From: Halorhodospira halophila
GTDB lineage: Bacteria > Pseudomonadota > Gammaproteobacteria > Nitrococcales > Halorhodospiraceae
NCBI RefSeq assembly: GCF_016653405.1
Contig: NZ_NHSN01000032.1
Location: 1 to 64,000 of the forward strand
Direction of reading: 5' to 3'
Length of the DNA stretch: 64,000 nt
The notes beneath the pieces are model-generated. The model was not told the DNA's origin and did not search any database. It was given only the letters and a program-made list of their open reading frames with translations. Numbering within the stretch: position 1 is the stretch's first letter; every line of letters starts with the position of its first letter. The translations under genes and the position numbers were made by a program. This document shows positions 22,293-26,602 of this stretch, piece by piece.

Positions 22293-22491
22293 GGTTTGAT
22301 CCCCCGTTTGCGGCAGTTGTTAGCCGTTGGATTGTTCGTGACGACTGTCCGGACGGGCCTCGACCCGGGCCCGGATCACGGCGCACGGATACCGCCGCGC
22401 GCCCAGCCGAACGGGCAGATGCTAGCGAATCGGCCACGGGGTGTGAAGCGGTGCCGCGGTGCGGCAAAACCGCAACCCCGCCCACCGACTG

Positions 22492-22521
22492 TTGTCAAGA
22501 GGCGTGCCAACCGGCTATAAG
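22492..22521 (+). promoter_or_regulatory. Sigma-70-type promoter of the HNH gene
   Basis: TTGTCA (22492-22497) and TATAAG (22516-22521) are separated by 18 bases, each 5/6 to consensus. The expected transcript starts about 28 bases before the GTG of the HNH gene. This is one of the best housekeeping promoter matches in the window. The DNA from 22293 to 22491 holds no gene that I can support. Confidence 0.6.
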
Positions 22522-22555
22522 AGGGCAAGCCCAATGCCTGACACGGGGGTGGGCA

Positions 22556-23140
22556 GTGCTCGAACACCGCATATTGCGCACCGACATATCCGGCATGCCG
22601 CTGGAGTGGGTCGGCTTCGAGGAGGCGGTCCGCTACTACTACCTCGGCCAGGTCGCCTACGCCTGCGGCAGTACACTCTACCGGGTCCGAGGCGGGTTCA
22701 ACTCGGCCACCGGGCGACGATCGTACCTTGACCTGAACTCGATCATCGCCACCGAGGGAACCCGACAGGCATCGCTCAAGGGTCGACCGGGCTACACGCC
22801 CCCGCTCAACAATCCGACCCTGTTCCGCCGCGACGCCCACCTCTGCCTTTACTGCGGCAGGCGCTTCCGTTCCTCCGAACTCTCCCGCGATCACGTCACC
22901 CCGGTCAGCCGCGGCGGCGCCAACACCTGGAACAACGTGGTCACCGCCTGCAAGCGCTGCAACAACCACAAGAGCGACCGGACCCCGGAGGCCGCGGGCA
23001 TGGAGTTGCTGGCGGTGCCATTCACGCCCACCCACGCCGAGTATGTCTACCTGCAGGGCCGGCGCATCCTTGCCGACCAGATGGAGTTCCTGCGCTCGCA
23101 CTTCCCGCGGCGCAGCCCGCTGCGGGTGCGCGAGCCGTAG
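22556..23140 (+). CDS. HNH endonuclease family protein
   Basis: 194 residues from the GTG at 22556, chosen because homology-like sequence (VLEHRILRTDISGMPLEWVGFEEAV) starts there and the promoter is 35 bases upstream; the frame's upstream ATG precedes that promoter. The C-terminal HNH module has a CLYC pair (97-100), DHVTPVSRGGANTWNNVV with the first His and Asn, and CKRCNNHK. The N-terminal ~90 residues resemble a conserved proteobacterial HNH subfamily of unknown role. It is a stand-alone gene with no methylase or toxin partner, so a chromosomal maintenance role is as likely as defence. Confidence 0.83.
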   Translation: MLEHRILRTDISGMPLEWVGFEEAVRYYYLGQVAYACGSTLYRVRGGFNSATGRRSYLDLNSIIATEGTRQASLKGRPGYTPPLNNPTLFRRDAHLCLYCGRRFRSSELSRDHVTPVSRGGANTWNNVVTACKRCNNHKSDRTPEAAGMELLAVPFTPTHAEYVYLQGRRILADQMEFLRSHFPRRSPLRVREP

Positions 23141-23155: not shown

Positions 23156-23177
23156 CTCCGAGGCGGCCTATTCGGAG
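23156..23177. terminator. Possible hairpin between convergent HNH and fusion-lipoprotein genes
   Basis: CTCCGA and TCGGAG form a 6-bp stem with a 10-base loop between the two convergent coding ends, overlapping the stop of the minus-strand gene. No T-tract is seen; weak support. Confidence 0.28.
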
Positions 23178-25597
23178 CGCTCGATGCGCCGGCGCTCCTC
23201 GTAGAGCAGGTAGTCCTGGAGCTGCGGCAGCCGGTGCTCGTCGCCGATGGCGTCCTCGCCGCCAAGGACATGCCCCGCGCCTGGGTGACCTCCGCGGCCC
23301 CGGTCGATGAGCCAGTCCCAGGTCATCTGCCCCGGGTAGATCAGTCCGATATCGGCCCACGCCACCTCGGCCTCGTCCAGATCGCCCTCCGTGTAAGTGG
23401 CCACGATGTCGGCCTCCGGGGCGTCGCCCGCCTCCCCGGCCAGGGCAAGCGTGTGCGGCATCGAGACCCGGTGCCAGCGCTGCCCCACGCCCTCGTGGAC
23501 GGCGAAGGCCACGTCGTAGACCTCACCGGGCTCCAGGGCGTGGCTGTCTGTGGGGTCCGGCGCCTCTAGCGAGCGGGTCAGGCGAACTCGCCAGGCGCCG
23601 TCCTCATAGCCACCGTCGGCCCGGATCGCCCCGCGGCTGCCGTCCGGCTCCTGCAGGAAACGCTGCGGCAGAACGTCCCCGTCCTCCCAGGGGTGGTCGG
23701 GGTCGAAATCGGTGGCGTGCCCCTCGCTCAGGTAGTAAAGGTCGTCCTGGTCGTAGTCACCCGCGAACAACCGCTCGCGGTCCAGGGCACGGAAGCCGGC
23801 CTCGTCGGGGTCGTACATCCAGCGCGGCTGCTCCGCCTCGTCGTCCCAGTTGTCGGTGAACATGCCGCGTCCCGCAGAGCTGTGGCGGTACTCGAGGACG
23901 TAGCCGTTGTCGGCGTAACCCAGGGGATGGGAGCGGTGGGCACGCCACTGCCACAGGTCGAGGAACTCACCGCGCTCGCGCATCGCCTCAAGCTCCGCCT
24001 CATCCCGCACGGCCGCCCAGTCGGCGGCGCCGTCACCGTCCTCGCGCGACTGGGGGATGTACTTGCGCACGTCCGAGCGCCCCAGGGTCTCGCCCAGGTG
24101 GGGGTGGGCCCGTACCTCGTCGGCCCCGGCGGCGCCGGTGAGCCCGCGCATACCCTCGTGGGCGGTCATGAATCCGCCGTAGCGGTCGAGCCCGACGTCC
24201 CCGTCGTCCAAGAGCATGGAGATGCGGTCCTCGTAGAGGCCGTGCTCGTCGGGTTCCGGACCCCCACTCCCGTAGCGGACCCACTCGCCACCGCTGCCGC
24301 GCCCCTCCACCTCGTAGACCCAGTACTGGTGATACCAGGACGGGGCCTCGGTGGCGAACTCGTAGCGGATCTGGATGGCCTCGTCGTTGTAGACGGCCCC
24401 CACCCGCAAGGTGCGCTCGAGCTCGCCGCGCGGCGGGATATAGACGTTACGCTGCGCATCCTCGGCCAGGGGCCGGTCCGGTTCCAGGCGGACGTCGAGC
24501 AGCGCCGAGGCCGCCCGCCACAGCCGCACGCTGTCGAACAGACCGCCCTCCAGCTCCACGTGGGCGAGACCAGCGCTGCGGTAGAGGTGGGCCTCCGGCG
24601 CCGCCGCCTCCAGTGCCTCGCTGTGGGAGAAGGGCACCACCCGGTCGTTGGTGCCGTGGACCAACAGCAGCTCCGGGTGGTAGTCCGACCAATCCCGACG
24701 GGACGGGTCCAGCTCCTCCAGGGCATCGCGGTAAGCGGCCGGGATCTGCTCCAAGTAGTCATCGAAGGCCTGGGGGTCGTCATTGGCGAGCAGATCCACC
24801 AGGGCGGCCGCCTCCTCGCCCAGCGCCGCGCGCTCGGCGCCGATGTCCGACTCTGGGTCATCCAGCCGGCGTTCGGCGATACGCTGCAGCCACTCCCGGT
24901 CATCCCCGTCCACCCGGCTGGCCAGTGCCTGGAGGAGAACCCAGCGGCTCTCCGCCCGTGGCGCCGGGTCATCCTGGGCGTCGGCCAACGCGTCGTACCC
25001 GGTGGTGATGTAGCGCAGCCACGCCTCAAGATCGTAGTACCCACCGATCAGGGCGACGAACTCCACGCGCCGGCGCAGCTCGTCGTCGGCGGTGGCGAGC
25101 AGCACCGGACCGCTCATCAGGCTCAGGGTGCTCACCCCCAGGGGCAGCCCGCGACTCGCCTCGCGGTTGGCCATATGGCGGACCGCATCGGCGACGTCAT
25201 CGCGATTCTCCGGCCCCCAGCGCAGCTCGCGCAGCCCCTCCACCTCGGGCACCAGGACCCGGTAGCCGACTCGGGTCAGGCTCTCGGCCATCTCCACCAG
25301 GCGCCGGTCGTCCTTGCCCTGCTCGGTCAGGCCGTGAATCAGCACCAGGTTGCCGCGGGCCTCGCCGTCCGGGCGGTAGAGATCCGCCTCGCGCTCGCCT
25401 TGGCCCTTGTCGTAGCGCACTGAAGTGCGCTCAGGGTCGCCGCCGCGATCCTGCAGGCGGGTCTCTTCGTGGCCCTCGGCGCTCAGATCGCCGAGCAGCA
25501 AGGCGGCCTCGTACTCCCGGTCGAGGGTGGCGCAACCGCCGGCGGACAGGGCCGCTGCGGCGCAGGCCAGGGTGGCGGATCGGGGGATTCGGGACAC
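23168..25597 (-). CDS. Alpha/beta hydrolase - EB_dh (haem-binding) fusion lipoprotein
   Basis: 809 residues, strongly acidic. The N-terminus has a signal with a weak lipobox (SAGGC, Cys22). Residues ~60-370 look like an alpha/beta hydrolase: NLVLIHGLTEQGKDD, nucleophile elbow GVSTLS (Ser156), VHGTNDRVVPF (Asp318) and AGLAHVE (His346). Residues ~395-790 resemble the ethylbenzene-dehydrogenase-related (EB_dh) domain, a haem-b-binding fold: QIRYEFATEAPSWYHQYWVY, HGLYEDRISMLLDDG, FLDLWQWRAHRSHPLGYADNG and RGAIRADGGYEDGAWRVRLTR. The GTG at 25597 has a GAGGTG ribosome site. The frame is continuous, so the fusion is real in this sequence. Function is unknown; both domain calls are mine from motifs. 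Confidence 0.72.
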   Translation of the reverse strand: MSRIPRSATLACAAAALSAGGCATLDREYEAALLLGDLSAEGHEETRLQDRGGDPERTSVRYDKGQGEREADLYRPDGEARGNLVLIHGLTEQGKDDRRLVEMAESLTRVGYRVLVPEVEGLRELRWGPENRDDVADAVRHMANREASRGLPLGVSTLSLMSGPVLLATADDELRRRVEFVALIGGYYDLEAWLRYITTGYDALADAQDDPAPRAESRWVLLQALASRVDGDDREWLQRIAERRLDDPESDIGAERAALGEEAAALVDLLANDDPQAFDDYLEQIPAAYRDALEELDPSRRDWSDYHPELLLVHGTNDRVVPFSHSEALEAAAPEAHLYRSAGLAHVELEGGLFDSVRLWRAASALLDVRLEPDRPLAEDAQRNVYIPPRGELERTLRVGAVYNDEAIQIRYEFATEAPSWYHQYWVYEVEGRGSGGEWVRYGSGGPEPDEHGLYEDRISMLLDDGDVGLDRYGGFMTAHEGMRGLTGAAGADEVRAHPHLGETLGRSDVRKYIPQSREDGDGAADWAAVRDEAELEAMRERGEFLDLWQWRAHRSHPLGYADNGYVLEYRHSSAGRGMFTDNWDDEAEQPRWMYDPDEAGFRALDRERLFAGDYDQDDLYYLSEGHATDFDPDHPWEDGDVLPQRFLQEPDGSRGAIRADGGYEDGAWRVRLTRSLEAPDPTDSHALEPGEVYDVAFAVHEGVGQRWHRVSMPHTLALAGEAGDAPEADIVATYTEGDLDEAEVAWADIGLIYPGQMTWDWLIDRGRGGHPGAGHVLGGEDAIGDEHRLPQLQDYLLYEERRRIERSE

Positions 25598-25711: not shown

Positions 25712-26602
25712 ATGGATCTGCAACAAACCATCGAGACCGCCATCACCGAGGCCACCGGCGAAGCCTTCGGCCCGGCCCGCCGGGGCGGCGCCGGGGGCGG
25801 CTGCATTAACGACGCCTTCACCCTCAGCGACGGGCACCGCCGCTTCTTCGTCAAGATCAACGATGCCGCCGGGGCCGAATTGTTCGAGACCGAGGCCGAC
25901 GCCCTGCGCGAGCTGGCCGGCGCCGGGGCACTGCGGGTGCCGCGGCCGATCGCCGAGGGCGCTCACGGCGGACAGCACTTCCTGGTCCTCGAGCACATCG
26001 ACCTCTCCGGCCGGGGCGATACCGCCGGCTACCGGCGCCTGGGCGAGGGGCTGGCCGCCCTGCACGGGGCCTGCGCCGCGGCCCACGGCTGGCACCGGGA
26101 CAACTTCATCGGCGCGACACCGCAGCCCAACGGCTGGGACGAGGACTGGGTCCGGTTCTTCCGCGAGCGGCGGCTGCGCCACCAGCTGCGCCTGGCCGCC
26201 GAACGCGGCGCCGGGCGCCGGGTGGTCGACGCCGGGGAACGCCTGGCGGCGGGGCTGGGGGCACTGTTCCGGGACTACACGCCGGCCCCCTCGCTGCTCC
26301 ACGGCGACCTGTGGGGTGGCAACGCCGGCTTCGCCCGCGACGGCGCGCCGGTGATCTACGACCCGGCCACCTACTACGGCGACCGCGAAACCGACCTGGC
26401 CATGAGCGAGCTATTCGGCGGTTTCCCGAGCGCCTTCCATGAGGGCTACGACGCCATCTGGCCGCGTGATCCCGGCTACGCGGTACGGCGCGACCTCTAC
26501 CAGCTCTACCACGTGCTCAACCACTTCAACCTGTTCGGCGGCATGTACCGGAGCCAGTCGCAGCGGCTGATCGATCGGCTGCTGGCCGAGATCGGCGGCT
26601 GA
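25712..26602 (+). CDS. Fructosamine kinase family protein
   Basis: 296 residues, typical length. Signature parts are GGCINDAFTLSDGHRRFFVK, FLVLEHIDL, WHRDNFIGATPQPN, the catalytic LLHGDLWGGNAGF and YDPATYYGDRETDLAM. Family members phosphorylate ketosamines or ribulosamines on glycated proteins, leading to deglycation. The bacterial enzymes mostly act on small or ribulose adducts, so the substrate is not certain. It is divergent from the fusion-lipoprotein gene across 114 bases. Confidence 0.9.
   Translation: MDLQQTIETAITEATGEAFGPARRGGAGGGCINDAFTLSDGHRRFFVKINDAAGAELFETEADALRELAGAGALRVPRPIAEGAHGGQHFLVLEHIDLSGRGDTAGYRRLGEGLAALHGACAAAHGWHRDNFIGATPQPNGWDEDWVRFFRERRLRHQLRLAAERGAGRRVVDAGERLAAGLGALFRDYTPAPSLLHGDLWGGNAGFARDGAPVIYDPATYYGDRETDLAMSELFGGFPSAFHEGYDAIWPRDPGYAVRRDLYQLYHVLNHFNLFGGMYRSQSQRLIDRLLAEIGG

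Follow-up and report, generated by a model that had tools for sequence, protein, structure and literature searches.

A single gene in the window, as we call the whole 64,000-nucleotide stretch of Halorhodospira halophila DNA analysed here, encodes a predicted lipoprotein in which an alpha/beta hydrolase and an EB_dh domain form one continuous chain. The gene lies on the minus strand and its frame comprises 809 codons with no internal stop in the window translation (Table 1). The coordinates and the presence of both domains agree with an earlier note, made from the sequence alone, which had given no strand and had described an uninterrupted 809-residue frame fusing a hydrolase to an EB_dh domain: the EB_dh profile PF09459 matched with E=5.2e-61, and the hydrolase was recognised by matches at the family level. 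The strong acidity that the same note had pointed out is also evident, with a pI of ~4.5 and 167 Asp/Glu against 84 Lys/Arg (Lys accounting for 3). A scan for sigma-70 promoters and terminators found none.

Table 1. Position of the fusion gene, its predicted parts and candidate residues, and its neighbours in the window.
Feature	Position	Strand	Basis
Fusion gene, GTG start, 809 aa	23168..25597	-	ORF; orthologous fusions in G004, G006 and G007
Lipoprotein signal peptide, residues 1-22, lipobox L-S-A-G-G-C22	25532..25597	-	Sequence inspection
Alpha/beta hydrolase domain, residues ~23-372	24482..25531	-	Profile matches; standalone homologues
Ser159, predicted nucleophile, elbow T-L-S-L-M	25121..25123	-	29/30 homologues; alignment to 9pjb_A
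Asp318, predicted triad acid, HGxxDxVxP	24644..24646	-	30/30 homologues
His346, predicted triad base, GLxHV	24560..24562	-	30/30 homologues
Junction, residues ~373-379, hydrolase end to mature EB_dh start	24461..24481	-	Ends and starts of standalone proteins
EB_dh domain, residues 380-809	23171..24460	-	PF09459 E=5e-61; model pLDDT; 2ivf_C Z 12.0
His480, candidate axial haem ligand, at the CX3CH histidine of sister proteins	24158..24160	-	38/39 in the fusion's clade
Lys512, in SDVRKYIP, one of 3 Lys	24062..24064	-	Conserved in the family, Pro in G007
His709, candidate axial haem ligand, H-x-x-S for EbdC-family K-x-x-S	23471..23473	-	50/50
HNH-type endonuclease frame, neighbour	22451..23140	+	Left flank of the locus, fixed
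Fructosamine-kinase-like gene, neighbour	25712..26602	+	Right flank of the locus, fixed

A conserved fusion restricted to one lineage

The fusion is real, conserved and limited to one lineage, with a single origin. A whole-genome search recovered it at full length in G000, G004 (93% identity), G006 (89%) and G007 (62%), four genomes from a single genus of salt-loving purple bacteria, and the frames are free of stops in all the assemblies, one of which (G006) is a single contig of 2,678,452 bases. This recurrence in independent assemblies refutes the idea that an assembly or frame artefact had brought two genes together, to which we attach practically no probability. The earlier note had given, as a finding that would refute its reading, separate genes in all close relatives together with a frameshift needed in this gene; the fusions in G004, G006 and G007 show the contrary. 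Among the three close genomes, dN/dS values were 0.08-0.12 in both halves (~0.3 in comparisons with G007, for which dS is near saturation), and both halves are, as judged from these ratios, under purifying selection. In a quick tree of the EB_dh domain (85 rows), the EB halves of the four fusions formed one clade (SH-aLRT 99). The junction has a fixed length, and in it the natural end of the standalone hydrolases meets the natural start of the mature standalone EB_dh proteins.

The genomic site of the fusion is occupied differently in other members of the family. In two relatives, G008 and, from another genus, G009, it holds a hydrolase alone, beside the fructosamine-kinase gene. In three genomes of the same genus (G001, G003 and G005; loci L139, L140 and L141), the HNH frame lies ~40-110 bases from the kinase gene and the site is empty. 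Since the kinase genes of these three genomes are nearer to that of the window than the kinase of G007 is, loss of the fusion would be the simpler reading of the empty sites. Found empty, with the hydrolase alone or with the fusion within one family, this site offers a natural experiment on how domains are captured.

The lipoprotein hydrolase half

As the earlier note had claimed, the protein begins with a lipoprotein signal: by inspection, its lipobox, LSAGGC22, ends in Cys22, which is invariant across the hydrolase alignment (A2). According to the Lol sorting rule, established in enterics, lipoproteins with a residue other than Asp at position +2 go to the outer membrane. Because the residue following Cys22 is Ala, not Asp, the fusion lipoprotein probably faces the periplasm at the outer membrane, if the enteric rule can be extended to this species.

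The hydrolase half of the window protein gave a weak match to Hydrolase_4 (PF12146; E=0.003), its 17.1 bits falling below the gathering cut-off of 27 bits. Nine of 10 homologues of the hydrolase family matched the same profile at E<=0.01 (best value 5.4e-9), and a profile of the family matched solved serine hydrolases with E ~5e-9, the structures being MHETase-like, monoacylglycerol lipase and meta-cleavage-product hydrolase. A model of the hydrolase built from two sequences had a pLDDT of 42. In an alignment of 30 homologues, we found residues in the order Ser-Asp-His, with a nucleophile elbow: Ser159 is conserved in 29 of them and Asp318 and His346 in all 30, the sole homologue without Ser159 (L024) being a distant generic hydrolase. 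The elbow of Ser159 follows the pattern Sm-x-Ser-x-Sm and its serine aligns to that of G-L-S-M-G in 9pjb_A, while the separate hydrolase homologues read A-[FI]-S-[FY]-A-x-G-P around this column. The earlier note had put forward the triad Ser156/Asp318/His346. Its Asp and His were retained; because of the conservation of Ser159, its elbow pattern and the alignment with 9pjb_A, we reassigned the nucleophile to Ser159 and rejected Ser156, found in 3/30 homologues. The related remark that the elbow GVSTL lacks its second Gly thus concerned the wrong serine, although the true elbow, TLSLM, and its counterpart in relatives are also devoid of the classic glycines. By its residues, the N-terminal half is predicted to be an alpha/beta hydrolase of the serine-hydrolase type, and its probable activity is the cleavage of ester or peptide-like bonds.

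Standalone lipoprotein hydrolases of Gammaproteobacteria, including those at the fusion site in G008 and G009, resemble the fusion in having the lipobox and the triad (35-52% identity) and differ from it in lacking the EB_dh domain. A sample of 370 genomes of the class contained the hydrolase in 24, with the window genome counted in, and a search of viral contigs retrieved no relatives of it.

The EB_dh half and its candidate haem ligands

The C-terminal half belongs to EB_dh in the Pfam sense: the PF09459 match covers residues 380-712 with 207 bits (cut-off 33.3), and the domain was detected in 50/50 members of the family. Structure prediction, which the earlier note had named as the check on the EB_dh fold and which might have returned another one, bore the assignment out. 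The whole-chain model, built with 50 sequences, was confident over residues ~390-809 (pLDDT mostly >90) and poor in the hydrolase part, covered by just one relative. The best structural match of the EB half was EbdC, the gamma subunit of ethylbenzene dehydrogenase (2ivf_C; Z 12.0, rmsd 2.9 A, 166 aligned residues), with NxrC of nitrite oxidoreductase (7b04_C; Z 11.5) in second place and CBM9 modules next in the list (7nwn, Z 7.2; 1i82, Z 6.8); antibody folds (Z ~5) were discarded as generic beta-sandwich matches.

The EB half shares with EbdC (2IVF chain C) and NxrC (7B04 chain C) the beta-sandwich haem-domain fold, and with EbdC also a local sequence match (E=3e-10). However, it is not an EbdC-type subunit, as shown by its score, its ligand positions and the lack of a partner enzyme. 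The EbdC-type profiles TIGR03477 and NF042980 remained below their curated cut-offs (23.1 bits vs 169.85 and 14.3 vs 400, respectively), and the EB half is twice as long as EbdC, carries an insert and is fused to a hydrolase. The genome has no molybdoenzyme partner above cut-off: the profile of the type II alpha subunit (TIGR03479) had no match over its cut-off in six genomes, and none whatever in G007, a result that led us to reject the EB half as a molybdoenzyme subunit.

The haem b of EbdC is ligated by Met and Lys (PMC8840923; PMC6472588). Our alignment of the EbdC family shows an invariant Met (T-M-G) and an invariant Lys (R-x-G-x-K-x-x-S), which we took as its haem ligands. In the window family, the position of the Lys is held by His709 (R-W-H-x-x-S), invariant in 50/50 sequences, and that of the Met by Leu, Met or Gln. 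The column of His480 corresponds to a CX3CH motif in several EB_dh relatives (L169-L173, L178-L182 and L186), with flanks strongly aligned on both sides, as illustrated by the fusion and L172 (GCWLSCHTGMRDM against GGFMTAHEGMRGL). Among haem-c motifs, CX3CH is atypical (PMC6295460). Exactly at this site the fusion reads GGFMTAH. The CX3CH proteins L172, L173, L180, L181, L182 and L186 have the His480 and His709 columns in common with the fusion (L172 and L173 being homologous to its EB half through the insert also), but they carry the cysteines for covalent haem c, both of which are replaced in the fusion, by Gly475 and Ala479. The alignment suggests that haem attachment at this histidine may have switched between a covalent (CX3CH) and a non-covalent mode, a proposal that is testable.

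We consider it probable that the EB half binds haem and, from the aligned columns, we infer a b-type haem ligated by His480 and His709. The haem binding that the earlier note had attributed to this half would therefore use a ligand set other than that of EbdC, whose Met and Lys are absent. The patterns used for locus retrieval required part of DLWxWR and FAVH, which biases the conservation of His554 and His701; His480 and His709 lie outside these patterns. Two other residues were considered. Met539 was rejected as an EbdC-type haem Met, most relatives having Leu, and Lys512, although present in 50/50 sequences of the alignment, is Pro in the fusion of G007 and is therefore unlikely to be a required ligand. 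In the sister clade with an N-terminal anchor, His480 is mostly missing (Gly in 7/11), which weighs against the haem reading. The genes of an anchored second EB_dh clade in which His480 is mostly absent (L110, L112, L113, L117, L120, L121, L123, L126, L129 and L130) adjoin a gene for a small conserved membrane protein. The genus also has larger EB_dh lipoproteins that stand apart from the fusion, L169 (G008) and L171 (G007), with CXXCH and CX3CH motifs and a His in place of Lys512.

Possible roles of the fusion and its relatives

With moderate confidence, we propose that a lipoprotein hydrolase captured a b-type haem domain, co-tethering two periplasmic functions. A periplasmic lipoprotein hydrolase would have gained at its C-terminus, via a ~7-residue linker, a complete mature EB_dh protein that arrived without its own signal peptide. 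The Ser159-Asp318-His346 triad would hydrolyse an ester or amide of small size, His480 and His709 would hold a single haem b in the EB half, and the lipid anchor and the fusion would together keep this redox or haem-carrying domain next to the hydrolase at the membrane, probably the outer one. As a hydrolytic reaction requires no electrons, co-tethering and shared export are the likeliest main benefit, rather than a flow of electrons to hydrolysis. If haem is indeed bound, EB_dh would join the cytochrome-type modules that move to other enzymes, here a non-redox one. Cellobiose dehydrogenase is a known case of an enzyme fused to a haem domain with a related fold; in it, a DOMON-type cytochrome (AA8) carrying haem b is tethered to a catalytic domain (PMC3620520; PMC6472588), although its partner is a flavoenzyme that uses the electrons and its ligation is His/Met, whereas the partner in the window is a hydrolase.

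The main rival to haem-domain capture holds that the EB half is a CBM9/DOMON-type module binding a ligand or carbohydrate and leading the hydrolase to its substrate. The protein would then resemble ordinary enzymes made of an esterase plus a binding module; the CBM9 structures come next among the fold matches, and either haem or sugar is the ligand in the DOMON class (PMC4846438). A binding site might be lined by invariant Trp residues, among them W549 and W551, and the EB half lacks the haem-b Met known from EbdC. We nevertheless judge this reading rather unlikely, given that both sequence and fold are clearly closer to the haem b subunits (Z 12.0 and 11.5 vs ~7 for CBM9) and that two histidines are kept where relatives have haem ligands or a haem-c motif. 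Somewhat more plausible, though still doubtful, is a neutral accident of gene joining, in which the halves work alone and their link has no functional meaning. The link has been kept from G007 to G000 despite their 62% identity, with the junction length fixed and low dN/dS values among close relatives, which speaks against such an accident, as does the presence of the hydrolase in 13 of the 13 EB_dh-positive genomes of the host order (vs 20/45 overall, counts that ignore relatedness). On the other hand, the halves are separate elsewhere, and among the 20 EB_dh-positive genomes that the wider search retrieved outside the order, the hydrolase is present in five and missing in 15. These counts inside and outside the order suggest that the halves are compatible yet not mutually dependent, and the 15 genomes without hydrolase, together with the three empty sites in the same genus, indicate that the pairing is dispensable.

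A redox-controlled hydrolase, with the haem or redox state of the EB half gating the activity or the EB half holding a haem-linked or redox-active substrate, appears improbable. What speaks for such control is that the two halves form one chain, that their junction is short and that the arrangement is conserved, but most relatives have the hydrolase as a protein of its own and we know of no hydrolase of this kind that needs haem or redox control. We are similarly sceptical that a bis-His b haem of the EB_dh domain, derived from or sister to the CX3CH haem c, might couple the periplasmic redox state or haem supply to hydrolysis.

With the fusion, a little-studied EB_dh family of soda lakes gains a definite partner. 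The standalone relatives of the EB half (51-62% identity) come mainly from haloalkaliphiles (Thioalkalivibrio, Ectothiorhodospira, Aliidiomarina, Wenzhouxiangella and soda-lake Opitutales). Those of Thioalkalivibrio, Ectothiorhodospira, Aliidiomarina and Opitutales have the same conserved positions as the EB half of the fusion but, unlike it, are separate secreted proteins or lipoproteins devoid of a hydrolase domain; the standalone proteins bear their own Sec or lipoprotein signals. In the literature library searched, Halorhodospira halophila and ethylbenzene dehydrogenase did not occur together in any paper. Among the EB_dh loci L051-L130, the clade of the fusion contains almost only soda-lake or haloalkaline taxa of Gammaproteobacteria, Verrucomicrobiota and Balneolota, which suggests a function linked to this habitat. 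The neighbours of the standalone EB_dh genes vary and form no conserved operon. In three loci (L034, L038 and L039), the gene comes after that of a TRAP-transporter permease, perhaps a link with solute uptake, the neighbourhoods being otherwise mixed. In Billgrantia kenyensis (L055:9911-11269), an EB_dh gene is split in two frames, possibly by decay or a sequencing error, and a second EB_dh gene lies adjacent to it.
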